A stretch of DNA of 64,000 nucleotides. It comes from an uncultured Chlorobiaceae bacterium. GTDB lineage: Bacteria > Bacteroidota > Chlorobiia > Chlorobiales > Chlorobiaceae. This document shows positions 2,849-27,159 of this stretch, one piece after another. Below the pieces are notes generated by a model that did not search any database, was not told the origin of the DNA, and worked only from the letters and a program-made list of their open reading frames with translations. The first letter of the stretch is position 1, and each line of letters opens with the position of its first letter. Location of the stretch: NCBI GenBank assembly GCA_903895195.1, contig CAITSZ010000047.1, positions 62,001-126,000 on the forward strand. Direction: 5' to 3'. The translations under genes and the position numbers were made by a program.

Positions 2849-3247
2849 ATGGCTATCATGACTGAATTTTTAGATTTGATTGTTCCCATAAAAGTTATTG
2901 AGAAGAAATATCCGGGCGGCTGGGAGCGTTGTCTTAAAGACCATAGTGCAGCCTTGAACGCCAGGGTCTGGTTTGATAACTCTCTTTTTCGGGATGGGGC
3001 TATGAACCATGATGCCATGAAGATATTGCTCAATGAGTGGTGGAAAATGGGGTTTGAATGTTATGGTGAAGAAGATGGAATAATGTGCTGGAAGGATGTG
3101 TGTGTTTATGAAGGAACGCAAGGAGGCGCAGGGATGCCATGTGACTGGTTGGCTGAAGACACTGCAAGCCATAGTGTTTATTTGAAGGGGACAGATCCTG
3201 GTGAGATCATTGGTCGTAATTGGGATATGATTGATGAGCTATTGTAA
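2849..3247 (+). CDS. hypothetical protein, 132 residues
   Basis: The frame starts at ATG 2849 behind AAGGAG at a good distance, so it is very likely translated. The product is soluble, acidic and rich in Trp and Cys: GGWERCLKDH near the start, EWWKMGFECYGEEDGIMCWKD in the middle and GMPCDWLAED near the end. No known motif is recognised. The four Cys are not spaced as a zinc ribbon. It has no partner gene: the STAS gene is divergent upstream and a secreted Ala/Lys-rich protein follows. Possibly lineage-restricted. Confidence 0.65.
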   Translation: MAIMTEFLDLIVPIKVIEKKYPGGWERCLKDHSAALNARVWFDNSLFRDGAMNHDAMKILLNEWWKMGFECYGEEDGIMCWKDVCVYEGTQGGAGMPCDWLAEDTASHSVYLKGTDPGEIIGRNWDMIDELL

Positions 3248-3363
3248 CTTTATTTCGGAAAAGAAAGATTTGTTGAAAGAAAAGAGAATGCTCTGCGTAG
3301 TAGTATATAGGAAGCAGGATAACCTTGATTCCAAAGAATTATAAAACCTAAACTTATATTCAA

Positions 3364-3609
3364 ATGAAAAAGAATTTCATCGCAGGCGTAATCGTTTCTC
3401 TTGCTATCACCGGTATCTTTGGTGGCGTTTCTTTCGCAGCTGACAAAGCAGCAGCTCCTGCAGCAGCAGTAGCAGCACCTGCAGCAACTCCTGCTCCAGA
3501 AGCTAAAGTTGAGAAGAAAGCAACCAAGAAGAAAGCAGCTAAGAAAGTTTCAAAAAAGAAAGCTGCAAAGAAAGTTGAAGCAAAGGTAGAAGCTCCTGCA
3601 GCTAAGTAA
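3364..3609 (+). CDS. small secreted Ala/Pro/Lys-rich low-complexity protein
   Basis: An 81-residue protein with a clear signal peptide: MKKNF start, hydrophobic core to about residue 20, and cleavage expected near VSFA-AD (residue ~26). The mature part begins as Ala/Pro-rich sequence (APAAAVAAPAATPAPEAK) and then becomes a run of KKA/KKAAKK repeats like a histone H1 tail, ending EAPAAK. A signal peptide argues against a DNA-binding role inside the cell. It may coat or bind anionic cell-wall polymers, but function is unknown. An intrinsic terminator follows at 3708-3740. The Ala/Pro composition echoes the lipoprotein at 50408-50626. Confidence 0.7.
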   Translation: MKKNFIAGVIVSLAITGIFGGVSFAADKAAAPAAAVAAPAATPAPEAKVEKKATKKKAAKKVSKKKAAKKVEAKVEAPAAK

Positions 3610-3707
3610 GCTCTTCCCTTTAGAAGAGTGATATTGATGGCTATTAAGGCAAATGATGTTGATTAGATGAGTAAGTTAAGATAAGCTGTCGGTAGTAAAC
3701 CATAGAG

Positions 3708-3740
3708 AAAGCCCCTTCGCAAGTTGGGGCTTTTTCTTTT
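3708..3740 (+). terminator. intrinsic terminator
   Basis: An AAAGCCCC arm and a GGGGCTTT arm enclose a 10-base loop and are followed by a T-rich run (3731-3740). It ends transcription from the small secreted protein gene about 100 bases upstream. Confidence 0.85.
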
Positions 3741-3902
3741 ACGGCAAATATCTTTACCACACGACGTAATATAATATTACACAATGGCGTACTATCTGTA
3801 CTGGAAAGAAAAAACAATGTTTTTTTAAAAATAAATCGCATTATTACATCAAGAAGCACTGAAATCAAGACGTAGTCAGTAAAAAACTCTCTTCAGTCCG
3901 CA

Positions 3903-5135
3903 ATGGCAATCCCAAAACTGCAGGAATTAACAGTAACCGAAAAGAGTCACTGGAGAAACCATCATCCTGAGGCTGATTATACCAAGCAGGCCCGAATACT
4001 GGACGGAGACATCGTTCATACGTGGGCTAAAGCCAATCATGATATAGAGCTGGACTTCATGGATGTTGATCTTCTGAAGCTTGTGCTCAGCGAAACCGGC
4101 CTTGTAAACAAGAAGTTTCATGTCATATTTGATCTCAATCACGTTACTGACATCTCCTATTCCTACAAGAAGGCTATTACTGAAATGCTGTTTCATTGGC
4201 AGCCATTCCTGGGCCTGGTATGTTTTTTCAATGTCTGCCCTCCCATGTCCATTATTGTAGACTCTTTTTCTGCAGTTGCGCCTGAGAGTTTTTGTGTCCT
4301 TCAGGCAGAAACATATCAGGATGCTGTAAAAAAGGCACTGGCATTCAAAGCAAATGATACCTTATCAGAAAACGGGACTACCGCATACGGCATTGAAAAT
4401 TCTGAATTAAAAAGACTGTTTCTCGGCGCAGTAGCTAGGATGTCCTGGCTCAACATTCTGGACTATCCAATCCCGATACCTGCTCCTGACAGTCAGTATT
4501 ACCCTTTTTTTCAGGCTATAGATGCCTTACGCTCTGACTGCAAAGCAAAAGAAATAGAAAAAGAGAATGAAATAAAACAGCTCCAACAGGATTATGAATC
4601 CAGAATAACTCAAACAATCATAAAAATGAATGCACAAACAGAAGTCGGCAAAAAGTCTATCAATGATTTTGAAGCACAGTTGACAGCTCTAAGGGCAAGA
4701 GTCGCAGCACAGGATATGGAGCTGACAAGAGTGGCTACAGCGATTTCAGAAAAGACCAATGCGCTGAGAAATCTTCTTGATCAAATACACTCTCTTGACA
4801 TTGATACTGATGTTAAAAGAAAGATGACTGATGGATGCCTTAAACTTTTGGAAACAGAAACAATAGAAAAGCGACTGAATATTGAACTGACAGAAACCGA
4901 TTCTTTCTTTCTGTCAAAACTCCAGAAAAAGCATCCTAACCTGAACCAGCGTGAACTGAGAATAAGCTTACTTGTCAAGCTGAATTATGACACCATAGAA
5001 ATTGCCCGGTCTGTCGGCATTTCGACGCGAGGTATGGAAAGCATCCGCTATCGGATGCATAAAAAACTTGGCTTAGGAAAGCATGAATCCATCAAAACTT
5101 ATCTTTCTGATTTTTCAGCGGCGTATAGTGCTTAA
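3903..5135 (+). CDS. coiled-coil HTH (LuxR-like) transcriptional regulator
   Basis: A 410-residue protein in three parts. Residues ~20-160 form an alpha/beta domain (HVIFDLNHVTDISYSYKKA, then LGLVCFFNVCPPMSIIVDSF) that looks SpoIIAA/STAS-like but lacks a clear signature. Residues ~215-300 are a long coiled coil with heptad-spaced leucines. Residues ~335-405 are a helix-turn-helix: LNQRELRISLLVKLNYDTIEIA followed by SVGISTRGMESIRYRMHKKLG, matching the LuxR/GerE pattern with an atypical turn. It probably dimerises through the coiled coil and binds DNA in response to an unknown cue. It stands alone and is followed by a bidirectional terminator shared with deaD. No good ribosome binding site precedes the ATG. 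Confidence 0.7.
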   Translation: MAIPKLQELTVTEKSHWRNHHPEADYTKQARILDGDIVHTWAKANHDIELDFMDVDLLKLVLSETGLVNKKFHVIFDLNHVTDISYSYKKAITEMLFHWQPFLGLVCFFNVCPPMSIIVDSFSAVAPESFCVLQAETYQDAVKKALAFKANDTLSENGTTAYGIENSELKRLFLGAVARMSWLNILDYPIPIPAPDSQYYPFFQAIDALRSDCKAKEIEKENEIKQLQQDYESRITQTIIKMNAQTEVGKKSINDFEAQLTALRARVAAQDMELTRVATAISEKTNALRNLLDQIHSLDIDTDVKRKMTDGCLKLLETETIEKRLNIELTETDSFFLSKLQKKHPNLNQRELRISLLVKLNYDTIEIARSVGISTRGMESIRYRMHKKLGLGKHESIKTYLSDFSAAYSA

Positions 5136-5193
5136 AGCCTTACATCAAAGGGAAATACGGGTGTAAGGGGAAAAAAGTGAGTGAGTGCAAAAA

Positions 5194-5221
5194 AAAAGCG
5201 AGGAAGAAATTCCCCGCTTTT
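5194..5221. terminator. bidirectional intrinsic terminator between convergent genes
   Basis: The arms AAAAGCG-A-GGAA and TTCC-C-CGCTTTT form a near-perfect stem with one A/C mismatch and a GAAA tetraloop. A-tracts and T-tracts on both sides let it work for the HTH regulator (plus strand) and for deaD (minus strand), whose stop is 19 bases away. Confidence 0.85.
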
Positions 5222-5239
5222 AACTCTCTATGGAAAGGC

Positions 5240-7036
5240 TTAACCGTTGCGTTTCTTTTTGTTGCCTGTAAAGAATGCCGTTTCTTTTCCTGCAGGTTTA
5301 AAAGGCTTCTTGAAGCTCTTTTTTATACCGTAAGGTGATGACGGACGCTCCTGCTCTTCCATTTTCGTAAGTCTCAGCTGACGACCACAGACCCTGACCT
5401 TTCTGAGCTCATGGAAGATGTTATCCGGCATTCCCTGAGGAAGTTCAACTGTGCTGTATGCATCGTTGATCGAAATCTGCCCTACCGATTCGGGATCAAG
5501 CCCAACTTCGTTAAGAATAGCGCCAAGAATATTACCGGCTTTCACGCCATCTTTGCTTCCGACCTCAATTCGATACCTTTCCTTACCTTCTTCACCATAG
5601 GTCTCGTCCTTTTTTCTTCTTTTAACCGGGCCGCGCTCTCTGTCAGAAAACCCACGATCTCTGTCAAAACTATCCCTGCTATCTTCACGGGGTCTTGGCT
5701 TTTCAGGCTTGTTGGATAAAAGCAGAGGTGTCTCACCTTGAAGCATCGAGGCTAACGCTGCTGCTGCTTCAATTGTGGGAACATCATGCTCGTGACAGTA
5801 CTGCTCGATAAGGCTGGTGAAAAATCCAAGATCTTCAGCGGCAATGGTATCAGTAATTTTCTGATTGAACTTTGCAACCCTCTTGTTATTGATGATTTCT
5901 GTTGAAGGAAGCTCCATCAATTCAATGCGGCTGTGGGTAGCTCTTTCAATAGCGCTGAGCATATTTTTTTCGCGTGGAGATACAAACAAAATTGCATCGC
6001 CTGCACGTCCTGCACGTCCTGTTCGTCCTATGCGGTGCACGTATGATTCGGTATCGGAAGGAATATCGTAATTGATAACATGGCTGATGCGTTCGACATC
6101 AAGTCCTCGTGCGGCCACGTCGGTAGCAATAACGATGCTCAGTGCTCCATTTTTCAATTGTTCGACAGTGCGCTCACGCTGATTTTGAACCATATCTCCG
6201 TTGAGTGCTGCCGCACCATAACCACGGGCCTGAAGTTTTTCGGCAAGTTCGAGCGTCATTGTTTTTGTACGAACAAAAATAAGCATGCCGTCAAATGGCT
6301 CGACTTCGAGAATTCTTGTCAGGATATCAATTTTGTGACTTCCGCCTACAATCCAGTAACGCTGGCGAATGGTATCTACAGTGGTGGTTTTTGTCTGGAT
6401 GGTAACTTCGGCCGGTTTGTTCAGATACTTTTGCGCAATACGGCGTATTACCGACGGCATTGTTGCGGAGAAAAGAGCAACCTGACGAGTTTTTGGTGTC
6501 TGATCAAGGATCCATTCGACATCGTCGATAAATCCCATGCGAAGCATTTCATCAGCTTCATCCAGAACAAGACATTTCAATGAAGAGAGATTGAGTGATC
6601 CCCGGCGCATATGATCCATCACACGGCCAGGTGTACCGACAACAACATGGACTCCGCGCTTCAACATGCGAAGCTGAATACCGTAATCCTGTCCGCCATA
6701 AATAGGGATGACATGGAAACCCTTGAGATATTCGGCATAACGCTGAAATGCCTCGGCAACCTGTATGGCAAGCTCACGTGTAGGAGCCAGAACAAGAGCC
6801 TGAGGTTCGGCCAGTTCAATATCGATGTTGGAGAGTATCGGCAGGGCAAAAGCTGCGGTTTTTCCTGTACCGGTCTGTGCCTGCCCGAGGACGTCGCGTC
6901 CTTCGAGAATAAGTGGAATTGTCTGAGCCTGAATGGGAGTAGGGTTTTCGTACCCGACTTCTTCAAGTGCTCTCATTATCGGTTCTGCGAGCTGTAGGCT
7001 GCGGAAATCCTGCGGCAATAATTGCTGATCTTTCAT
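5240..7036 (-). CDS. deaD: DEAD-box ATP-dependent RNA helicase, DeaD/CsdA type
   Basis: A 598-residue protein with all DEAD-box motifs in order: Q motif (NPTPIQAQTIP), Walker A AQTGTGKT (~residue 55), PTRELA, TPGR, DEAD, SAT, then in the second RecA lobe VATD-like IATDVAARGLD and HRIGRTGRAG. Residues ~485-560 (RYRIEVGSKDGVKAGNILGAI, ending GRQLRL) are a DbpA/CsdA-type RNA-binding domain. The tail is basic and rich in Lys/Phe. The family unwinds RNA duplexes in ribosome assembly, mRNA turnover and cold adaptation. It is a single transcription unit with its own terminator. Confidence 0.95.
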   Translation of the reverse strand: MKDQQLLPQDFRSLQLAEPIMRALEEVGYENPTPIQAQTIPLILEGRDVLGQAQTGTGKTAAFALPILSNIDIELAEPQALVLAPTRELAIQVAEAFQRYAEYLKGFHVIPIYGGQDYGIQLRMLKRGVHVVVGTPGRVMDHMRRGSLNLSSLKCLVLDEADEMLRMGFIDDVEWILDQTPKTRQVALFSATMPSVIRRIAQKYLNKPAEVTIQTKTTTVDTIRQRYWIVGGSHKIDILTRILEVEPFDGMLIFVRTKTMTLELAEKLQARGYGAAALNGDMVQNQRERTVEQLKNGALSIVIATDVAARGLDVERISHVINYDIPSDTESYVHRIGRTGRAGRAGDAILFVSPREKNMLSAIERATHSRIELMELPSTEIINNKRVAKFNQKITDTIAAEDLGFFTSLIEQYCHEHDVPTIEAAAALASMLQGETPLLLSNKPEKPRPREDSRDSFDRDRGFSDRERGPVKRRKKDETYGEEGKERYRIEVGSKDGVKAGNILGAILNEVGLDPESVGQISINDAYSTVELPQGMPDNIFHELRKVRVCGRQLRLTKMEEQERPSSPYGIKKSFKKPFKPAGKETAFFTGNKKKRNG

Positions 7037-7349
7037 TTGTGTATTCTATTCCAAATCATTGAGTAAAAAGCCTCGTATGAGGCGGGAGTGGCAGCAATGC
7101 AGGAAAGAAAAAAATGAAGAAGAGTTCTCATCAACCGAAAACATCCGGGCAACTTCAGACACAATACCGAGCGCCATCGTTTCGTCACAAACACTGGAAA
7201 TACTCAAGGCCTGTTTGACCTTATAATTCCTGCGTCCTTTCTTAGCATATTCACCACGCATTTAAAACGCCAGCATAGTACGATTTTTTTTTACCAAATA
7301 CGAATTTATTATGCGGTAATTGAACAGGGGGCGGATGTGAAAGAGGATG

Positions 7350-7376
7350 AGATCCCTCGCCAAATGTCGGGATGAC
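7350..7376. repeat. diverged copy of the dispersed 31-bp repeat
   Basis: It shares AGATCCCTC at one end and GTCGGGATGAC-like sequence (7367-7376) at the other with the copies at 1835-1865 and 40820-40850, but the middle differs. It lies in the spacer between divergent deaD and waaA. I see nothing else recognisable in the spacer 7037-7466. Confidence 0.5.
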
Positions 7377-7466
7377 GAAAAAGATGCAAATTGTATAGAA
7401 AAAGTGATTTGATGAGGGGAGTCGGCAAGTGACTTTTTTATTACCTTAAAGCTATTTACCGATGTA

Positions 7467-8759
7467 ATGAGCATGAAACATTTCGTTATGCATAGCTTTG
7501 CCCTTTTTTGCTACTCCCTTCTTTTTCCGTTTTTTCACGGTACTGCAAAATTAATACGACCATTCTCTCCGAAACTTCGAACTTTTTTCGAAGTCAGGAA
7601 GGCCGTGATAGAGAAAGTTGAAAAAAAAATAAGTCAACTTCCATCGCCTGCTTTCAGGGTATGGATACATGCTGCCTCTGTCGGGGAATTCGAGCAGGCT
7701 CGGCCTATAATAGCCGCATTGAAGGAAAAGCGACCGGACATTATCTTTTTTGTCTCTTTTCTTTCGGATTCAGGATACAACGCAAGAAAAAACTTCCCGG
7801 ATGCCGCTGCAGTGTTTTACCTGCCTGTTGATTCACGAGCTAATGCAAAAAAGCTGATATCAGTCCTCAAGCCTGATGTTTTGCTTCTCATGCGCTATGA
7901 CTTCTGGCCGAACCATCTTGTGGAAGCTAAAAAATATGGCACAAAACTGATTCTCGCTGCGGCGGTGCTGCAACAAAACGCTCCGTATTTCAAGCCGGTT
8001 GTGAAACGTTTTTATACAAGCATTTTTCATCTGTTCGATCATATCTATACGGCAGCTTCAAAGGACACCGCTGCGTTCAGGCAGATATTCATGTGCCTGA
8101 ACGCTGAGACTGCAGGCGACCCGCGGTTTGATCAGGTCATACAACGCAGTAAAAACCCGGGGAGGATTGATCACATCAAACCTTTTTTTGAAAACAAGAC
8201 AGTTCTGGTTGCCGGAAGCGTGTGGGATAAAGACAGCGCTCTTCTCCTTTCAGCATGGCAGGAGTTGGCAGTGCGTCCATCGCTTATTCTGGTACCTCAT
8301 CAAGTACACCCTGAAAATATGGCGCGTCTCACCCGGGATCTTCAAACCCGTTCTATCGCGTTTGTGAAGGTTTCAGCTATGACTGAAAAATTTGATCCTG
8401 CACAGGAAGTTCTCGTCATTGACCAGACCGGCTATCTTGTGGAGCTTTATTCAATAGCTTCGATAGCTTATGTCGGTGGAGGATTCGGCGTCAATGTCCA
8501 TAACACGCTTGAGCCGGCGGTCTACGGTATTCCTGTTGTGTTTGGCCCAAACTATCACAACTCTCCTGAAGCAGAAGCTCTTGTTGATGCTGGCGGTGCA
8601 ACAGTCATTTTCGATCAGGCGACACTGTCGGCCACACTGAACGAAATTGTTACCAATGCCACTGAAAGAGCAAAGAGAGGAAAGATCGCTAAAACATTTG
8701 TGGAAGAGAGAACAGGGGCTACGGCAATAATAGCCGACAGTATTATGACACTGCTGTAA
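7467..8759 (+). CDS. waaA: 3-deoxy-D-manno-octulosonic acid (Kdo) transferase
   Basis: A 430-residue membrane-anchored glycosyltransferase that adds Kdo from CMP-Kdo to lipid A precursor, building the lipopolysaccharide inner core. Signs are the N-terminal hydrophobic anchor (residues ~8-25), the family signature VWIHAASVGEFEQARP (~residues 65-80), the catalytic Glu in GEFEQ, the LMRYDFWPN segment (~residues 140-150) and the C-terminal lobe with YVGGGFG and the HNTLEPAVYGIPVVFGPNY donor-binding motif. Its length is typical. ATG 7467 or ATG 7473 could be the start; neither has a clear ribosome binding site. Its presence indicates a Gram-negative envelope. Confidence 0.93.
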   Translation: MSMKHFVMHSFALFCYSLLFPFFHGTAKLIRPFSPKLRTFFEVRKAVIEKVEKKISQLPSPAFRVWIHAASVGEFEQARPIIAALKEKRPDIIFFVSFLSDSGYNARKNFPDAAAVFYLPVDSRANAKKLISVLKPDVLLLMRYDFWPNHLVEAKKYGTKLILAAAVLQQNAPYFKPVVKRFYTSIFHLFDHIYTAASKDTAAFRQIFMCLNAETAGDPRFDQVIQRSKNPGRIDHIKPFFENKTVLVAGSVWDKDSALLLSAWQELAVRPSLILVPHQVHPENMARLTRDLQTRSIAFVKVSAMTEKFDPAQEVLVIDQTGYLVELYSIASIAYVGGGFGVNVHNTLEPAVYGIPVVFGPNYHNSPEAEALVDAGGATVIFDQATLSATLNEIVTNATERAKRGKIAKTFVEERTGATAIIADSIMTLL

Positions 8760-8771
8760 CCCCGGAAGCGC

Positions 8772-9566
8772 TTACGGAACCAAGGAGTCCTTAACTGTTT
8801 TTATCGGTGCAATTTTCGGCAACTGAACAGGGCGCTTGCGATACCTCTTTGACCAACCTTGTATGGTGTATGCCTTAAAGGTCTGCGTCGAAACGACAAC
8901 TCCTGTGATTTTAACCTGTTTTCCGGGAAGAAGCCGGGTGCCGGGACGAATATCTGTATTGTTGATATCAATCTGCCAGATATTTTTATTGAAATCTCTT
9001 ATGACAAGGATCTGCTTCTCCTTCCGGTACTCAATAACCTTCCCGCCAAGCATACCCTTTTCGGCGTGTGTCCAGCGGTGTTCGTTGGCATAAACCAGCT
9101 TGTTATAGACATGTAGATTTTCAATAAGGTACCGATGAATATACTTACCGACATCAATCGTATTCAATCCGACGCTGAGCAAAAGACTTGCGAGCAGAGC
9201 TCCTGCAATAACCTTTGTGGTTGCATAACGATAGCCTGTTTTGGTGTGTCGGAATCCGAAATAGGCGACTATGGTAAAAAGTGCAAGAGTTGCTACCCAT
9301 ACATAGGGTATGCTTGCTACTATTTCGGCAATTAAGGGACGTTCGGCCAAAAACAGGTCGATGTATTGATGATCCTCTATGAAATCATTATCAATGAAAA
9401 CATAAATAGCTGTAGCCATCGCAATACTGCCGGTCAAGACTGAAATTGCAGCAAGAAGCCAGAACCCGAATCGTTGAAGAACGAAGTGCCAGCGAGGAAT
9501 AGGCACTGCATTTCTTTTTTCGATTTCTTCCAGAATTGATTTTGATCTGTCCTTAAGCATAATCAT
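8772..9566 (-). CDS. membrane protein, probable anti-sigma partner of the ECF sigma factor
   Basis: A 264-residue protein encoded 5 bases after the ECF sigma factor stop codon, so almost certainly cotranscribed. It has a cytoplasmic N-terminus of ~35 residues, three hydrophobic segments (residues ~33-55, ~82-100, ~115-135) and a large C-terminal domain. That domain contains beta-rich sequence (KQILVIRDFNKNIWQIDI, PGKQVKITGVVV) like a small OB-fold/barrel. There is no zinc-binding ZAS motif (HxxxCxxC). Position and topology suggest control of the sigma factor by membrane sequestration, which is inference. The C-terminal domain could sense an envelope or redox signal. Confidence 0.65.
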   Translation of the reverse strand: MIMLKDRSKSILEEIEKRNAVPIPRWHFVLQRFGFWLLAAISVLTGSIAMATAIYVFIDNDFIEDHQYIDLFLAERPLIAEIVASIPYVWVATLALFTIVAYFGFRHTKTGYRYATTKVIAGALLASLLLSVGLNTIDVGKYIHRYLIENLHVYNKLVYANEHRWTHAEKGMLGGKVIEYRKEKQILVIRDFNKNIWQIDINNTDIRPGTRLLPGKQVKITGVVVSTQTFKAYTIQGWSKRYRKRPVQLPKIAPIKTVKDSLVP

Positions 9567-9571
9567 GATAT

Positions 9572-10153
9572 CTAACGCCCTTCTAAATAACTTTTAATTT
9601 TTTTCTTGGCACGATTAATCATAGTGGCAACTGTCCCCTCAGGTATCTGTAAAATATCTGATATCTCTTCATAGCGTTTTTCTTCAAAGAATTTCAAAAC
9701 AATGATTTCGCGACTTTTCGGATCAAGCCTGTCAACAGCCGCCTGTATTTCCGATGACGAATGCTTTTGACCATCCCCGTCCGTCAGTTCCAAATTTTCA
9801 ACAACTTTTTCAAAAAGAAATAAATCGCACTCTCTCTCTAATACACTCGGGAGATTCTTTTCCTTTCGAAATGAGCTGATGATTTCATTATGCGCGATGC
9901 GGTATATCCACGATGAAAACTGAAGGGAGTGATCGTAATCATTGAGATGAACGTAGGTTTTGATGAAGATCTCCTGCAGCAGATCCTGCGCCGCAGTGGA
10001 ATCCCTGCATCCCAGTCGGGTTATATATCGTAAAAGAGGAGCTTCGTAGCGACGAACGATTGCAGCAAACGCATTTTTATCAACAAGAGTCTGTGTAACC
10101 AGATCCTGGTCTGTGCATGGATGCTGTTCTTTATGTCGTGAAGTATCGGCCAT
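9572..10153 (-). CDS. ECF-type RNA polymerase sigma factor
   Basis: A 193-residue sigma-70 family protein. Region 2 covers residues ~30-100 (AAQDLLQEIFIKTYVHL, then FSSWIYRIAHNEIISSFRK, the -10 recognition and core-binding helices). Region 4 covers ~138-190 (LDPKSREIIVLKFFEEKRYEEI and IPEGTVATMINRAKKKIK, the -35 HTH). A Ser/Asp-rich linker separates them, with no region 1 or 3, as expected for group 4. AGGA precedes the ATG. The next gene encodes a membrane protein that probably restrains it. The regulon cannot be read from the window. Confidence 0.92.
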   Translation of the reverse strand: MADTSRHKEQHPCTDQDLVTQTLVDKNAFAAIVRRYEAPLLRYITRLGCRDSTAAQDLLQEIFIKTYVHLNDYDHSLQFSSWIYRIAHNEIISSFRKEKNLPSVLERECDLFLFEKVVENLELTDGDGQKHSSSEIQAAVDRLDPKSREIIVLKFFEEKRYEEISDILQIPEGTVATMINRAKKKIKSYLEGR

Positions 10154-10270
10154 ATCCTGGAAAAAAAATCCTGAATGTCAGTGTTATAATCTTTATAGAG
10201 TAAAGCGAAAAGCCTGCAACCCTATATATCTTCGTAAAGGAAGATGACCGGCTCTGTATCCTCTGGACAT

Positions 10271-11521
10271 TTAATCCAGTCGAGGCTTAACTCCTTTAAT
10301 ATCGTGGAAAGAAACAACGCCAAGCAGGTGATCGCTCTCATCGGTTATCGGTACAGCGCGGAATGAGTAACGGAAAAAAATGTCAACAGCATCCTGCAGG
10401 GTTTCATCCGGACTGAGGGTGATGAGGCTGTCGGTCATAATCTCCCCAAGTGTCTGTTCTGGCTCAGCGGCAATAAGCTCGCGTAAATCAACAACTCCCT
10501 GAAGAACATTCTCTTCATTGACAACGTAGACATACATGATGACATCCATGTCGCCGGCAACGTCGCGATAATTGTTAATGACATCACGCACTATGGTCTC
10601 AGGCGGTCGTTTGATAACCTGCTGCGTCGAGTAGAGCATGATGTTTTCATCATTCTGATCAATAATCTGCTGCACTCTCTGCTTGTTTTCACTGTCTACA
10701 AACTCAATAATCTCATCGGCTTCCGAAGCTGGCAGCACTGAAAGAATATCTGCTACCTGAGCAGGACTCATTTCGTTAATCAATTCTGCTGCACGCTCTT
10801 TTTCCATCGAGCGGATAAGCTCTCGCTGCACTCTCGGTTCAACCTCTTCGAGGGTATCTGAAGCCAGTTCCGGTTCTATCTGATTGAATACTGCCATACG
10901 CTGGCTGCCGTCGAGCTCCTCGAGAATATCAGCCAGATCGACCGGGTGAATATCGTTGATATTTTCCTTGAGCACATTGAGCTTGACATTGCCTTCAAAG
11001 CTGCCGATAGTATCAGGCAAAGGCTGCACATAAAGCCAGGATATACTGGATCCCTCTTTGTATTTGGCAAGATAATTGGCAAGCTTTTTAAAGCCCATCC
11101 GGCGGAGAATACGAAAACGGTTGAAATCCACATCAGTGACAAAAAGCCGGTCGTTCTGAAACAGAAGCTTGACATCGTAGACTACTTCAACCTCATGGCC
11201 ATCCATATCAAGTATCTTCTTGTCAAGAATATAGTCTTTCAGGAAAATGTGGTTATCGAGGGGATTGAGTTCGTAGCCTTCGGTGCTGGTGATTTCTGAA
11301 ACAATTTCAGTGTTTGAAATCAGGGTGATTTTATCCCATGGAATCAAAAGACGAGGATCACCATAAGGCTGGTGAACCAGCAGATGGGTAACTTCAGGAA
11401 CCTTACCGGCGTTTTCCTGTATAACAAGATCTTTCAGCTTTCCGACTGAACGTGTTTTCAGATAGATTCGGCGGCCGACAATCTCGCTAAGGTAAAAGTC
11501 ACGATTAAGAACTGTAACCAT
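10271..11521 (-). CDS. soluble MgtE-N/CBS-domain protein with PRC-barrel-like N-terminus
   Basis: 416 residues without membrane segments. Residues ~8-75 look like a PRC barrel (VGRRIYLKTRSVGKLKDLVI), with a second related unit to ~140. Residues ~180-290 carry the MgtE intracellular N domain (HPVDLADILEELDGSQRMAVF, repeated helix pairs with ADILS and ADEIIEFV). Residues ~300-415 are two CBS repeats ending HLLGVVSFHDI. In MgtE channels these domains sense cytosolic Mg2+, but the channel domain is absent. Downstream of the NRAMP-like transporter and the 55-residue peptide in one operon, it most likely gates or senses for that transporter (inference). Confidence 0.85.
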   Translation of the reverse strand: MVTVLNRDFYLSEIVGRRIYLKTRSVGKLKDLVIQENAGKVPEVTHLLVHQPYGDPRLLIPWDKITLISNTEIVSEITSTEGYELNPLDNHIFLKDYILDKKILDMDGHEVEVVYDVKLLFQNDRLFVTDVDFNRFRILRRMGFKKLANYLAKYKEGSSISWLYVQPLPDTIGSFEGNVKLNVLKENINDIHPVDLADILEELDGSQRMAVFNQIEPELASDTLEEVEPRVQRELIRSMEKERAAELINEMSPAQVADILSVLPASEADEIIEFVDSENKQRVQQIIDQNDENIMLYSTQQVIKRPPETIVRDVINNYRDVAGDMDVIMYVYVVNEENVLQGVVDLRELIAAEPEQTLGEIMTDSLITLSPDETLQDAVDIFFRYSFRAVPITDESDHLLGVVSFHDIKGVKPRLD

Positions 11522-19592: not shown

Positions 19593-19700
19593 ATGAGAGC
19601 AATCGAACAAAACCGGATAAAAATCCTTAATTTCAGCATCAAATCCGAACCGCTTCCGGCGGTACTTTTTTCTCCAGAATCAATGGTTAGCCGCTGCTGA
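19593..19700 (+). CDS. 35-codon orphan frame between ftsE and jetA, possibly a truncated gene
   Basis: ATG 19593 opens 9 bases after the ftsE stop and runs 35 codons: it starts MRAIEQNRIKILNFSIKSEP and ends SPESMVSRC. The N-terminus looks like the start of an ordinary soluble protein, then it stops 8 bases before jetA. This could be the remains of a gene that followed ftsE and was cut when the Wadjet operon was inserted, or a leader peptide. There is no homology I can name. Translation is uncertain. Confidence 0.3.
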   Translation: MRAIEQNRIKILNFSIKSEPLPAVLFSPESMVSRC

Positions 19701-19708
19701 CAACCTTA

Positions 19709-21154
19709 ATGGCTCTCGACTACACCACCCTGAACCTGCTTCGTCAGAACCACCCTGCATGGCGATTGTTGTGCGCGCAACATGCGCCATTGGTAGCCGG
19801 GTTTCTGCACCGGGTATTTATTGTTCCCAATGTGCGGATACTCTCACAGGCGGATCTGGTCGAGGCGCTTGAAGATGAGTTGTTTGCATTGCGCCAGCAG
19901 CTTGGAGCAGATCAATTTCCAGGTACAGCACAAAATTACCTGAATGAGTGGGCTGACAACGAGAAGGGATGGCTGCGTAAATTCTATCAGGACGGTACGG
20001 ATGAACCTCACTTTGACCTGACTGCAGCAACTGAAAAGGCACTGGCCTGGCTGGAAGGGTTGACTGAGCGTACTTTTGTTGGAACTGAGTCGCGACTTCT
20101 AACCTTATTTGAACTGTTGCGTCAAATGAGTATGGGAAGCCAGGCCGACCCTGAAGTTCGGATTGCGGAACTGCAAAAGCGCCGTGACGATATTGATGCA
20201 GAAATTGCCCGCATTCTTGCCGGAGAGATATCACTTTTGGATGATACCGGCCTGAAAGATCGTTTCCAGCAGTTTCTGCAACTGGCACGTGAATTGTTGA
20301 CCGATTTTCGCGAGGTGGAGCATAACTTTCGAAAACTCGATCGCAGGGTACGTGAGCGCATCGCCCTCTGGGAGGGAGCCAAGGGAGCACTGCTTGAAGA
20401 GATCATGGGTGAACGTGATGCTATCGCCGATTCGGATCAGGGAAAGAGTTTCCGGGCATTCTGGGATTTTCTCATGTCGCAGTCCCGCCAGGAGGAGTTG
20501 AGCGTGCTCCTGGAAGATGTGCTGAGCTTGCCGCCAATCATTTCGATGCGCCCCGATACCCGTCTGCGAAGGGTTCACTATGACTGGCTGGAGGCAGGAG
20601 AACATACCCAGCGGACTGTTGCCCGACTCTCTGAACAGTTGCGCAGGTTTCTTGATGACAAGGCGTGGCTTGAGAACCGCCGTATCATGGATATCCTGCA
20701 TGAGATCGAAACCCATGCCCTTGATTTGCGCGACGATCTCCCTTCAGGTGGATTCATGCCTCTTGACGACTCCACAGCGGTCATTGAACTGCCTTTTGAA
20801 AGAGCCCTTTATCGCCCACCCTTCAAGCCTTTAATTGCAGGCATCGCTCTGGATGAAGGAGATGCTGAAATCGATACCGCAGTTCTTTACGCCCAGGTTT
20901 TTGTCGACCGGGCCGAGCTGTTGCGAAATATCCGCATGGAACTTCAGATACACAGCCAGATAACCCTCGGGGAGGTAGTTGTGCGTCATCCCCTGCGTAA
21001 TGGGTTGGCAGAACTGGTTGCTTATCTGCAACTTGCCGGGGAGTGGCCCCGGAGTGCGGTGGATGAAGGAGCCATGGAAGAGATAAGGTGGCAGAGCGTG
21101 ACGGGTATAACCAGACTGGCAACATTACCGCGCATTATTTTATTAAGAAACTGA
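19709..21154 (+). CDS. jetA: Wadjet JetA (DUF3375) condensin-like kleisin subunit
   Basis: A 481-residue protein. Its N-terminus (DYTTLNLLRQNHPAWRLL, then APLVAGFLHRVFI) is the DUF3375 signature. The middle (residues ~145-240) is helical and charged, predicted coiled coil. The C-terminal part (SQITLGEVVVRHPLRNGLAE) is a winged-helix-like segment. In Wadjet type I, JetA is the kleisin that bridges the SMC-like JetC heads. It is the first gene of a four-gene run whose members overlap. The stop TGA (21152-21154) shares a base with the jetB ATG. The start codon lacks a clear ribosome binding site. Confidence 0.88.
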   Translation: MALDYTTLNLLRQNHPAWRLLCAQHAPLVAGFLHRVFIVPNVRILSQADLVEALEDELFALRQQLGADQFPGTAQNYLNEWADNEKGWLRKFYQDGTDEPHFDLTAATEKALAWLEGLTERTFVGTESRLLTLFELLRQMSMGSQADPEVRIAELQKRRDDIDAEIARILAGEISLLDDTGLKDRFQQFLQLARELLTDFREVEHNFRKLDRRVRERIALWEGAKGALLEEIMGERDAIADSDQGKSFRAFWDFLMSQSRQEELSVLLEDVLSLPPIISMRPDTRLRRVHYDWLEAGEHTQRTVARLSEQLRRFLDDKAWLENRRIMDILHEIETHALDLRDDLPSGGFMPLDDSTAVIELPFERALYRPPFKPLIAGIALDEGDAEIDTAVLYAQVFVDRAELLRNIRMELQIHSQITLGEVVVRHPLRNGLAELVAYLQLAGEWPRSAVDEGAMEEIRWQSVTGITRLATLPRIILLRN

Positions 21155-21789
21155 TGATGAACCATACAGAGATTGATACATCCCGTCCGTTGTACCCGAC
21201 CCAGGAACTCTCTTTTGTAGTGATTCCCCTTTTGAAAGGCGTGATTTACGAGGAGGATAACCAGGCATTATGGAGCGCCTTACTCAACCAGCTGGCTGGC
21301 ATTCGGGATTACGTGGCAGTGCTTGGCCTGGAATTGATTGTTGATGAGGCAGAAGGATACGCTTTTTTGCGTTCTCAGCCTGAAACCGGAGCAGAAGGCA
21401 CAAACACCACTCCCCGCCTTATGGCAAGGAGGCAGCTCAGTTACCCGGTCAGCCTGTTGTTGGCACTGCTGCGTAAAAAGCTTGCTGAATTTGATGCCGG
21501 AGCCGGTGATACACGTTTGATTCTTTCACGGGATGAGGTGGTTGAACTGATCAGGATTTTCCTCCCCGCTGCAAGCAATGAGGTCAAGTTGATCGACCAG
21601 GTCGATGCCACGTTGAATAAAATCGCCGACCTTGGTTTTATCCGTCGTTTGAGGGGAGAGAAGCAGATGATTGAAGTCCGCAGGATTATCAAGGCGTTTA
21701 TTGACGCCCAATGGCTGGCCGATTTTGATCAACGCCTCGACGAATACCTGCAGCGACCTGCACAACCGATGGAGGGAAATAATGAGTGA
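21154..21789 (+). CDS. jetB: Wadjet JetB (DUF4194) accessory subunit
   Basis: 211 residues from ATG 21154 (a second ATG follows directly). The start is placed here because it overlaps the jetA stop; an upstream in-frame codon would lie inside jetA. The sequence fits DUF4194: [19 protein letters not shown] near residue 25, [20 protein letters not shown] (~residues 95-115), then two winged-helix-like segments ending [22 protein letters not shown]. In Wadjet type I it plays the KITE (MukE/ScpB-like) role on the JetA kleisin. It overlaps jetC by 8 bases. Confidence 0.87.
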
Positions 21790-24700
21790 AGCACTTGAAT
21801 TTGGATTTATCGGTGATGATCGTCTGGCTGGCTTTCGACTTCAGCGTCTGGAGGTTTTCAACTGGGGAACCTTCGATGGACGGGTCTGGACATTGCGGCT
21901 GGGCGGAAAAAATGGACTCCTCACCGGGGATATCGGTTCCGGAAAATCGACACTGGTCGATGCCGTAACGACCTTACTTGTGCCAAGCCAGCGTATCGCC
22001 TATAACAAGGCGGCTGGGGCAGAAAACCGTGAACGCTCGCTGCGTTCTTACGTGCTGGGATATTACAAGTCGGAGCGACAGGAAAACCTTGGCGGAGGCG
22101 CCAAACCGGTCGCTCTGCGCGAATCCAACTGTTATTCGGTGATTCTCGGCGTCTTTCATAACGAAGGGTACGACAAAACTGTAACCCTGGCACAAGTGTT
22201 CTCGATGAAAGATGCCACACAGCCAGCCCGTTTTTATGCTGCTTATGAGGGTGATCTCTCCATCGCGGCAGATTTCTCTGCGTTTGGTACCGAAATCGGA
22301 GCTCTGCGCAAGCGATTGCGCGGGTTGGGAGTTGAGTTGTTTGAAAGCTTTCCTCCTTACGGTGCTTGGTTCCGACGACGCTTCGGCATCGACAATGAGC
22401 AGGCGCTGGATCTGTTTCATCAAACCGTATCGCTCAAGTCGGTAGGAAACCTTACCGATTTCGTACGTCTCCACATGCTCGAGCCTTTCAATGTCGAGCC
22501 ACGTATTGCTGCTCTTATCCAGCATTTCGAAGATCTCAACCGGGCTCACGAAGCCGTCCTTAAAGCAAAGCGGCAAATAGAAATGCTGGGGCCTCTGGTG
22601 GCTGATTGCGATAATCACCAGAGTATGGCCCGAACAGCGGAAGCGTTGCGGGCCTCTCGCGATTCCCTGCGTCCCTGGTTCGCATCTCTCAAGCTGGAAT
22701 TGCTGGACAAACGCCTTTCCGTGCTGGATGAAGAGCTGAGCCGTCACCATATCGCCATTGAACGACTGGAAGAAGAACGCCGCACCCAGCAGGGACGTGA
22801 TCGTGAGCTGCGCCGAACCATCGCTGAAAACGGCGGTGACCGTATAGAGAGTATTGATGCAGAGATTCGGCAGAAAGAGGATGATCTTGAACGGCGCAAT
22901 CAGAAAGCAACCCGATATGGGGAACTTACAGGTCTGCTTGGTGAGCATCCTGCAACGAACGCTGAGGAGTTTCATCTTCAGCGCGGCGGGCACTCAACCA
23001 TGCAGGAAGCAACTGCTGATAATGAAGCAAGAGTTCAAAACGATCTCAATGAGGCGGGCGTTCTCTTTACCCAGGGTCGCAATGAGCATGAACAACTGAC
23101 AACTGAGATCAAGGGTTTGAAAGCCCGCATGAGTAATATCGACGAAAAACAGGTTACCATGCGTCGATCGCTCTGTCAGTCGCTGAATATCGAGGAAAAT
23201 GAGATGCTTTTTGCCGGAGAACTGCTTCAGGTTCGTGAGGACGATCAGGTTTGGGAAGGAGCCATTGAACGTGTACTCCGAAACTTCGGCCTTTCGCTAC
23301 TGGTGCCGGATCATCACTACCTGAAGGTGGCGGAGTGGGTGGAGCAAACCAACCTTAAAGGTCGTCTGGTCTATTTTCGAGTGCGTCAGCGTTCCCGCAG
23401 TGAACAGATGCCCGATCATCCAGCTTCTCTGGCGAACAAGCTCGCCATTAAAGCCGATTCCCCTTATTTTGACTGGCTGGAACATGAAGTCGCCTTGCGT
23501 TTCGATCTGGTTTGCTGCATGAGCCAGGAAGAGTTCCGGAGGGAGAAAAAAGCCATAACCCTGGCCGGACAGATCAAGTCACCGGGTGAACGCCATGAAA
23601 AGGATGACCGCCACCGGCTTGACGACCGCAGCCGCTATGTGCTTGGCTGGAGCAATGCCCAGAAAATCGCTGCACTGGAAGATAAAGCCCAACTCCAGAA
23701 AAAAGCACTTGCCGAACTTTCCAGCCGCATGAGCATTATGCAGCAAGAGCAAAATACACTCAAAGAGCGTCTGACAACACTCTCCAAGCTTGCCGAATAT
23801 CCGGATTTCCGCGATCTTGACTGGCAACCTCTGGCCGTTGCTATCGCCAGACTGGAAAAGGAAAAGCGAGATCTTGAGGCAACATCAAACCTTCTGCAAA
23901 CCCTGACCGCCCAACTTGCCGCGCTGGAAAAGGAACTACAGGAAACGGAGCGGAAACTTGACGATCGGAAGGATAAACGCTCTAAGATTGAGCAAAAGAT
24001 CAGCAGCATCAAGGAGTTACAGCTGCAGGTGCTTACGCTTCTGGCTGAAGCTGAACCAGAAGCTGCTGCGCGTTTCGCTATGCTTGAAACCATGCGCGTG
24101 CAGGCTCTCGGAGAACAGACGCTAACGGTTGAAACGTGCGACAATCGCGAGCGTGAGATGCGTGATTGGCTGCAGGCAAAAATCGACGCCGAGGACAGGA
24201 AGCTCTCCCGACTGAGCGAAAAGATCATCAGGGCAATGACAGAATACAAGGAAGAGTGGAAGCTGGAAACCCGTGAGGTGGATGTCAACATTGCTGCAGG
24301 AGCGGAATATCGTTCTATGTTTGATCAACTCCATGCTGATGATCTGCCGCGATTTGAGGGGCGTTTCAAGGAGCTGCTCAATGAGAATACCATCCGTGAG
24401 GTTGCCAATTTCCAATCACAACTGGCTCGCGAGCGGGAGACCATTAAGGAGCGCATTACCCGGCTCAATGAATCGCTTACGCAAATCGACTTCAATCCCG
24501 GCCGATACATCACCCTTGAAGCACAAATAAACCTCGATGCTGACCTTCGTGACTTTCAGTCGGAGCTTCGTGCCTGCACCGAAGGGAGTCTGACAGGCTC
24601 GGATGATGCGCAGTATTCAGAAGCAAAATTCCTCCAGGTAAGGAGGATCATCGATCGATTCCGTGGCCGTGATGAGCATGCCGACTTGGATCGGCGCTGG

Positions 24701-25147
24701 ACAGCAAAAGTCACTGATGTGCGCAACTGGTTCGTTTTTGCGGCCAGTGAACGTTGGCGGGAAGACAACAGCGAACATGAACACTACGCTGATTCGGGGG
24801 GTAAATCCGGAGGGCAGAAGGAGAAGCTTGCTTATACCGTGCTTGCCGCCAGCCTGGCCTATCAGTTCGGCCTGGAGTGGGGCGCGGTGCGCTCCCGGTC
24901 GTTCCGCTTTGTGGTCATCGATGAAGCCTTCGGTCGCGGTTCTGATGAGTCGGCCCAGTACGGGCTGCAACTCTTTGCCCAGCTCAACCTGCAACTGCTG
25001 ATTGTTACACCATTGCAGAAAATCCATATCATAGAGCCGTATGTATCCAGTGTAGGGTTTGTTCTCAATCAGGAGGGGCGCTGCTCGGTGTTGCGCAACC
25101 TTACCATTGAAGAGTATCACGCCGAGAAAGAGAAGGCACTTGAATGA
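21782..25147 (+). CDS. jetC: Wadjet JetC, SMC/MukB-like ATPase
   Basis: 1121 residues from ATG 21782; an earlier in-frame start would lie in jetB. Walker A is GDIGSGKST (residues 49-57), preceded by [14 protein letters not shown]. Two long coiled-coil arms (residues ~245-470 and ~610-900) flank a compact hinge ([20 protein letters not shown] region, ~residues 490-560). The C-terminal head has the signature [19 protein letters not shown] and Walker [20 protein letters not shown]. This is the motor of the Wadjet complex, which extrudes DNA loops and recognises small circular DNA. Frames on both sides overlap (jetB by 8 bases, jetD by 4), so the operon is tightly coupled. Confidence 0.92.
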
Positions 25148-26328
25148 GCTGGACAACCCCTGCAGAACTCAAGGCCCAGGTTCAAAAACTCTGGGATCGG
25201 GGCTTAATCCTCTCCGCCCTGACTGGCAGTGAAGAGATTTTCCCCCGACGTTTGACGCTGAGAGGGCCAGACTCCCGGCAGTTAAGCGACTCTTTTTCCG
25301 ATGTACGAGACTGGATTGCCCGGCTGTCAGGCCCAGCGAAACAGTTCAGGATTGTATGGCGCAGCATCAATCATCGCATTCTGGGACCCAATGAAATTCC
25401 AGCGGAAATCTGGATCGATTCACTCGATGATGCTCTTGGGTTGATAGGTAAACGGCGTGCAGCCGAACAATTTGCCGCTCTCTTTGCACAAACACGCAAG
25501 CATCAGCCCGCCTTACTCCCATGGCTGGCAAAACGACCCCTGCGCGCCCTTGAGCTGGTCGAAGAGTGGCCCCGCATCCTTGAAATCGTCACATGGCTGC
25601 TGAAGCATCCCCGTCCTGGCATATATCTCCGACAGATCGACCTGCCCGGAATACACAGCAAGTTCATTGAAGGACAACGAGGTGTGCTCGGTGAGCTTTT
25701 GGATCTTGTGCTTCCGCCGGAGGAGATCGATGCAAGAGCCACAGGAATAGGGGGTTTCTGTCGCCGTTATGGCTTTCTGGATAAACCTCTACGGGTGCGA
25801 TTCAGAATTCTCGACCCTCAATTGGCGAAGTTGCAGACGGGAACAGATCAGGATATCACGGTGACACAGGCAACTTTTGCCAAACTGGATATAGCGGTTA
25901 CAAAGGTTTTCATCACCGAAAACGAAATCAACTTTCTTGCTTTCCCCCGGGTTCCTCAGGCAATGGTGATTTTTGGAGCTGGCTATGGTTTTGAGAACCT
26001 CGCCACAGCAGAATGGCTGCACGTCCGGAAGATACATTACTGGGGAGACATTGATACCCATGGTTTCGCCATCCTCAACCAACTACGGGGGTTCTTTCCC
26101 CAAGTGGCCTCTTTTTTGATGGATCAGCAGACATTTCTGGAATATCGAACCCTTTGGGGCGTAGAACCATCTCCTGAAACAGGAACACTCACGCGCCTGA
26201 CAGCTGAAGAGAGTGCGCTTTATGATCAGTTGCGATCGAATGAATATGGCGGTCAACTAAGGCTGGAGCAGGAGAGGATTGGTTTTAATTGGCTGGTTGA
26301 GGCGCTGGGGGCTTTGGGGAGGGTTTGA
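25144..26328 (+). CDS. jetD: Wadjet JetD (DUF3322/DUF2220) Toprim-like nuclease
   Basis: A 394-residue protein and last gene of the Wadjet operon (ATGA overlap with jetC). The N-terminal ~190 residues ([28 protein letters not shown]) are DUF3322-like. The C-terminal DUF2220 part is a Toprim-type domain related to topoisomerase VI A/Spo11. The acidic residue is in [14 protein letters not shown] (~residue 260) and the DxD pair in [15 protein letters not shown] (~residue 300). JetD cleaves plasmid DNA once the JetABC motor stalls on a small circle. The catalytic residues look intact, so the system is probably functional. Confidence 0.9.
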
Positions 26329-26389
26329 TCGGGGGGTACATATTCGCTGGAATACTTAACAACCCTACTCTCTGCAAGAGAGAACGATA

Positions 26390-26715
26390 TCAAGCGGATT
26401 TCGCCATCTTTTCCGTACGCTGATCCAGGGTGCACAGGACTTCCTGAATGGCTTCCACTTCGGGGTCATCAAAATAGACTTCACCACACTGGGCGCAATC
26501 ATCCTTCGGTGAGCAAACGACATGAATTGGAGTATCATCTCCGGCTTATAACCTAAAATAAGGCAACTATGACCTCGCAAATCTTCAGGGTAGTCCTCGA
26601 CCAATCCCCCTCGCTCAACCACATTTCTGACCTCCGCAACCCTGATCATCCTGTCTGGTCAAGACATTTGCCGAACAGCATGAGGGAGATAGATTATCCT
26701 TTTTGCAGCACTTTT
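26390..26715 (-). pseudogene. degraded DUF4258 toxin fused by deletion to a YgiT-type antitoxin tail
   Basis: Read leftwards, one frame gives KRIIYLPHAVRQMS, an in-frame TGA (26659-26661), then MIRVAEVRNVVERGG and YPEDLRGHSCLILGYK, the DUF4258 toxin pattern. Near 26543 the frame shifts, and the next frame continues DDTPIHVVCSPKDD, the expected DUF4258 strand. It then jumps directly to CAQCGEVYFDDPEVEAIQEV, the C-terminal half of a YgiT-type zinc-finger antitoxin, ending MAKSA and a stop at 26390. The toxin C-terminus and antitoxin N-terminus (including its first CxxC) are missing. So a toxin-antitoxin pair has suffered a stop mutation, a frameshift and an internal deletion. No product is expected. 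Confidence 0.75.
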
Positions 26716-26969
26716 CTGAACAGAACTTATGATATCTGAATGAAGGGTCATAGGGTACTTTCAATCTGTAGCTCAGTGGCTCGATGCACTAATGCCAAAA
26801 TCCATAACGACGCAGCAGCCTATCTGATAGGCGTTAATGGGAGCGGTTGCCAACACTCTTCAACAGTACTCGCCTCGTAAAGTATCTACCCTTTGGAGTA
26901 TAACAAACAATTTCAGGCCATCAAAACACACAATCCGAAACAGATATCAACGACATTACGTCCTTCTTT

Positions 26970-27068
26970 TCAGACAAGCGTCTTTGCCCGGCTTCTTACT
27001 CGTTCAAAAATTGCATTGGCAACCTGTGAGGGAAATCCTGCAGGCAGGTGACCTGCTCGCAGGGTCAT
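26970..27068 (-). pseudogene. possible HipA C-terminal relic
   Basis: A 32-codon minus-strand frame reads HLPAGFPSQVANAIFERVRS followed by RAKTLV and a stop. This resembles the C-terminal end of HipA-type kinases (a 'DFP..VA..IF.GL..RA' pattern). Upstream sequence in this frame is closed by a stop a few codons before, and no further HipA sequence is recognisable. The match is short and rests on recall of a family pattern. The remainder of the gap (26716-27159) shows no gene I can support. Confidence 0.3.
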
Positions 27069-27159
27069 ATCATCGAATCAGTCCATCGACTTGATCCACT
27101 GACCAAGCCGATAACCCTTGGGGTCTTGCTGCGACAGGGTTCCGACCGGCGGCTGCTCT

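Follow-up and report, generated by a model that had tools for sequence, protein, structure and literature searches.

A complete type I Wadjet operon between ftsE and nrdJ in a green sulfur bacterium, with interrupted counterparts elsewhere in the genus

The window analyzed here, a stretch of 64,000 nucleotides from an uncultured Chlorobiaceae bacterium, almost certainly encodes a functional type I Wadjet complex that was in place between ftsE and nrdJ before the related species split and that has been inherited since. Judged by its sequence, jetABCD is a complete and ordinary representative of this already known system. The type I label, given in the first-pass annotation, is borne out: the matches to family models, the order of the genes, the motifs aligned with solved structures and the signs of purifying selection all agree with it. 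The annotation was also right in naming a green sulfur bacterium as the host, as near-identical operons with the same flanks are found in Chlorobiaceae genomes.

The four genes lie on the plus strand as a single operon, in the order jetA-jetB-jetC-jetD (19709–26328). The first gene, jetA (19709–21154), encodes a kleisin-like DUF3375 subunit of 481 aa (PF11855, 6.5e-157; PADLOC JetA1, 5.6e-222; JetA of PDB 8dk1, 4.4e-26), and jetB (21154–21789) encodes a KITE/MukE-like DUF4194 subunit of 211 aa (PF13835, 2.2e-46; PADLOC JetB1, 6.2e-88; JetB of 8dk1, 6.1e-9). They are followed by jetC (21782–25147), coding for an SMC/MukB-like ATPase of 1121 aa that matches PADLOC JetC1 (E = 0), the Pfam families AAA_29 and SbcC_Walker_B (about 7e-24 each) and, in a near full-length alignment, JetC of PDB 8as8 (1e-60). 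The last gene, jetD (25144–26328), encodes a Toprim nuclease of 394 aa with DUF3322 and JetD_C domains (PF11795, 2.5e-59; PF09983, 1e-60), which matches MksG (8b7f, 9e-22), JetD (7til, 2.9e-13) and JetD(E248A) (8q72, 1.7e-10). The four proposed Pfam models are thus each matched by the expected jet protein, at E-values that, together with the JetC1 result, rule out a chance match. An NCBIfam search of the four proteins returned no specific model. The genome contains one DUF3375 gene.

The genes are tightly packed. The jetA stop codon and the jetB ATG have one base in common, jetB and jetC overlap by 8 bp, and jetC and jetD by 4 bp. A mechanically listed ORF starts jetC at 21671; this was rejected as an over-extension and the ATG at 21782 was taken instead. 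None of the four genes contains an internal stop, so that coordinates, content and uninterrupted frames all agree with the earlier description of four intact, overlapping genes. The motifs that had been read from the letters were all located as well. In JetC, Walker A is found at residues 49–57, the signature SGGQKEK at 1009–1015 and Walker B, FVVIDEAF, at 1043–1050. The Toprim residues of JetD are ENEINFL (259–265) and GDID (within 299–307). In alignments with the solved structures, ENEINFL has its first glutamate at the position that is mutated in 8q72 (E248A), and GDIDTHG is paired with GDMDSWG and GDMDTWG. On alignment, where a frameshift or a lost catalytic residue had been sought, frames and motifs are intact, and no catalytic motif is missing from the jet proteins.

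Purifying selection was found for jetC and jetD. For jetC, dN/dS is 0.08–0.09 against the relatives G032 and G005, which indicates strong constraint, and for jetD it is 0.13–0.15 against near relatives. JetD has changed more quickly, with 82–85% identity in the nearest relatives as against 88–96% for JetA and JetC. The mode of action is inferred from known family members, as regards the extrusion of loops, the sensing of circle size, the cleavage step and the restriction of plasmids. By analogy with them, JetC dimers together with JetA and JetB would make up an SMC motor that, once loaded on DNA, extrudes loops at the expense of ATP. On a small circular molecule, the motor would come full circle and stall, whereupon a JetD dimer would be engaged and make a double-strand cut. 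As a result, plasmids would be lost and the large chromosome would be spared. A sigma-70 scan, which says little in this phylum, recognized no promoter upstream of jetA.

The history of the site was examined by comparing the ftsE-nrdJ interval in related genomes, as had been suggested earlier. In all nine nearest relatives, defined by an nrdJ identity of at least 93%, the operon adjoins ftsE, nrdJ or both, and jetA identity (92–96%) is close to that of ftsE (89–96%). In 22 more distant congeners, the ftsE-nrdJ gap measures 5–647 bp with no operon between. Since ftsE and nrdJ stand side by side in these genomes, an insertion did occur here, but at an earlier time: the site was filled before the nearest species split, which is not compatible with a recent gain. 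The absence of the block, proposed in the annotation as a sign of horizontal gain, was found in distant congeners; its presence at the same place in all nine closest relatives, which the annotation had named as refuting recent transfer, largely does so. Moreover, 15 of the 22 congeners with an empty junction have jet genes elsewhere, either on a different contig or at a long distance, and in G015, G020, G012, G067 and G023 (nrdJ about 89–90% identical) jetA is located 1.7–4 kb from ftsE. Across the phylum, DUF3375 is patchy, being detected in 43 of 297 sampled genomes and 10 of 140 genera. The closest operons found beyond the Chlorobiaceae are those of Desulfobacterota, with 72–74% identity in jetC. 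These data fit an old horizontal spread and moves between sites within the genus, combined with vertical inheritance at ftsE/nrdJ in the group of the window, the latter being suggested by position and identity.

A recently gained mobile operon with a composition that is still foreign is, by comparison, very improbable. Besides the patchy presence and the 22 empty sites, it could draw on base composition, as the jet genes had been described by eye as richer in GC at third codon positions than their neighbors. The remark is correct, but the effect is small: GC3 ranges from 0.519 to 0.552 in the jet genes, against a mean of 0.473 (sd 0.038, maximum 0.530) in the 36 other ORFs of at least 200 aa, and the values of the flanking genes ftsE (0.523) and nrdJ (0.517) are close, with the jet range overlapping them. 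The raised GC3 is thus not evidence of recent transfer. In addition, no integrase or transposase was seen adjoining the operon in the window, and the conserved position and jetA identity among the nine nearest relatives argue against such a gain.

Compared with the solved type I systems (8dk1–8dk3, 8as8, 8q72 and 7til), the window operon shares gene order, domain families and catalytic motifs and differs in sequence divergence only, with no gene extra or missing. All four proteins hit their Wadjet counterparts in the PDB, and their best PADLOC models are, in turn, JetA1, JetB1, JetC1 and JetD1. For types II and III, only weak JetD3 matches were obtained (1.6e-4 versus 8.8e-154 for JetD1). The Wadjet operons of the Desulfobacterota mentioned above, from Desulfogranum japonicum (L050) and Desulfuromonas (L045), have the same gene order, but their upstream regions differ from that of the window operon. 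MksBEFG of Corynebacterium is overall the same machine as JetABCD; its MksG (8b7f) is the top-scoring PDB chain for JetD. The corynebacterial system carries a separate name, whereas all four proteins of the window are covered by the PADLOC type I Wadjet models. That MksG match, together with that of JetB to MksE (5.5e-21), is what could speak for a MukBEF- or MksBEF-like housekeeping condensin that stands beside a Toprim gene by chance and organizes the chromosome rather than defending it, but this is the least probable account of all, given the type I models for all four proteins, the translational overlap of jetD and its intact Toprim residues, a jetD match in only 40 of 61 sampled congeners next to the limited DUF3375 count in the phylum, and an operon position that differs between genomes, a patchy spread and variable placement being unlike a core condensin.

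On its 5′ side, the operon is preceded by a leader of about 86 bp (19623–19708, plus strand) that, according to upstream comparison and alignment, is kept beside jetA across the genus; homology starts near its 5′ edge in 12 of the compared loci. The leader contains a weak terminator-like hairpin (19649–19663), ACCGCTTCCGGCGGT, followed by the T run ACTTTTTT, about 45 bp 5′ of jetA. A role as attenuator was considered and left as a weak remark, because both elements have decayed in several of the relatives. Similarly, a fixed transposon-like unit was considered, since homology repeatedly runs from about 86 bp 5′ of jetA to near the jetD stop, but it was not adopted: these boundaries fall at the leader and at the final codons, and no transposase was linked to them.

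On the 3′ side, the gap between jetD and nrdJ measures 0.8 kb and holds remnants outside the Wadjet machine. A decayed DUF4258 gene with adjoining remnants (26365–26760, minus strand; PF14076, 2.6e-7) shows 86–87% blastx identity, in broken frames, to ORFs of the loci L051, L033 and L048, and is related to small genes 3′ of jetD in relatives. The last ~40 codons of a HipA-family gene follow at 26976–27077 (minus strand; blastx to ORFs of L054 and L056, the former matching HipA_C at 7.3e-46). A complete copy of this gene occupies the jetD-nrdJ interval in the relatives G032 and G005, as it does in L054 and L056. Probably, cargo once stood 3′ of jetD in the window and has since been lost. The jet operon itself is free of inserts.

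Elsewhere in the genus, jet operons are interrupted. In L061 (G027), a ParD/ParE cassette of 760 bp (10082–10841) is located between jetB and jetC, bounded by direct repeats of ~130 bp that consist of the jetB end and the jetC start (9952–10081 and 10842–10972). At the same junction, L041 (G067) has a 2.1-kb insert (7829–9927) with 186-bp repeats, and L033 (G012) one of about 6.7 kb (3147–9922) with 126-bp repeats, which codes for a TacA/GNAT pair, a HEAT-repeat protein and a radical-SAM protein that weakly resembles pVip. In G003 (L093/L094), jetAB and jetCD are about 12 kb apart. The repeat copies are non-identical, which indicates that the inserts are not brand new, and jetC of split loci is as constrained as jetC of intact operons (dN/dS 0.05–0.11). 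Most genomes with interrupted operons are metagenome bins, in which misassembly at repeats is a possible source of such arrangements. ParDE-like sequence is additionally present 5′ of jetA in L027 (535–1150), L049 (6077–6355), L055 (7310–7588) and L114 (4504–4836), making ParDE a recurrent Wadjet neighbor in the genus; in the last three loci it sits between ftsE and jetA.

Fused and duplicated jet fragments occur as well. The first ~54 codons of jetA are joined in frame to the last ~29 of jetB, directly 5′ of an intact or contig-truncated jetC, in L028 (9756–10004), L034 (3581–3832), L037 (9762–10007) and L044 (853–1104), at the same junction or within a few bases of it. Fusions of a jetC tail to a jetD tail are found in L095 (G079:C33), L102, L104, L108 and L120, with a common junction (reference position 5947 joined to 7029) at which about 15 bp are shared. 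In G079, jetD is present several times within 20 kb. The last 50–60 codons of jetD occur a second time ~1 kb 3′ of the full gene, with other sequence between, in L026 (15396–15581), L042 (13372–13527), L033 (15524–15661) and L060 (2997–3170). In some loci, jetD tails stand 3′ of cargo.

These sequence comparisons suggest that the jet loci are a hot spot of recombination in which toxin-antitoxin genes abound. The likeliest mechanisms are homologous recombination via duplicated operon ends, or duplication of the operon followed by deletion. It is conceivable, if still rather doubtful, that cassettes of toxin-antitoxin genes or other cargo repeatedly enter the type I Wadjet of Chlorobium at its junctions, i.e., jetB/jetC, the 3′ end of jetD and the region 5′ of jetA. 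Roughly 60–190 bp would be duplicated at jetB/jetC and at the jetD end, so that jetAB and jetCD can become separate units with no damage to any of the four jet genes, and the embedded pairs may guard against loss of the operon. The window copy would then be an uninterrupted one with decayed cargo on its 3′ side. In the part of the literature covered, preprints excluded, no work linking Wadjet with Chlorobium was found, and titles and abstracts held nothing relevant on cargo inside Wadjet operons, which is weak evidence of novelty.

The window operon adds a well-preserved natural Wadjet for green sulfur bacteria. If expressed, Wadjet may help to account for the poor plasmid uptake of these organisms. 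The genus-wide pattern outside the window is a more useful lead than the window operon itself, as dozens of related genomes present the same operon intact, moved, split or decayed, in some cases with toxin-antitoxin cassettes inside. The genus thereby allows two questions to be tested: whether defence operons acquire addiction modules via recombination at their junctions, and whether jetAB and jetCD still cooperate once they have been split.
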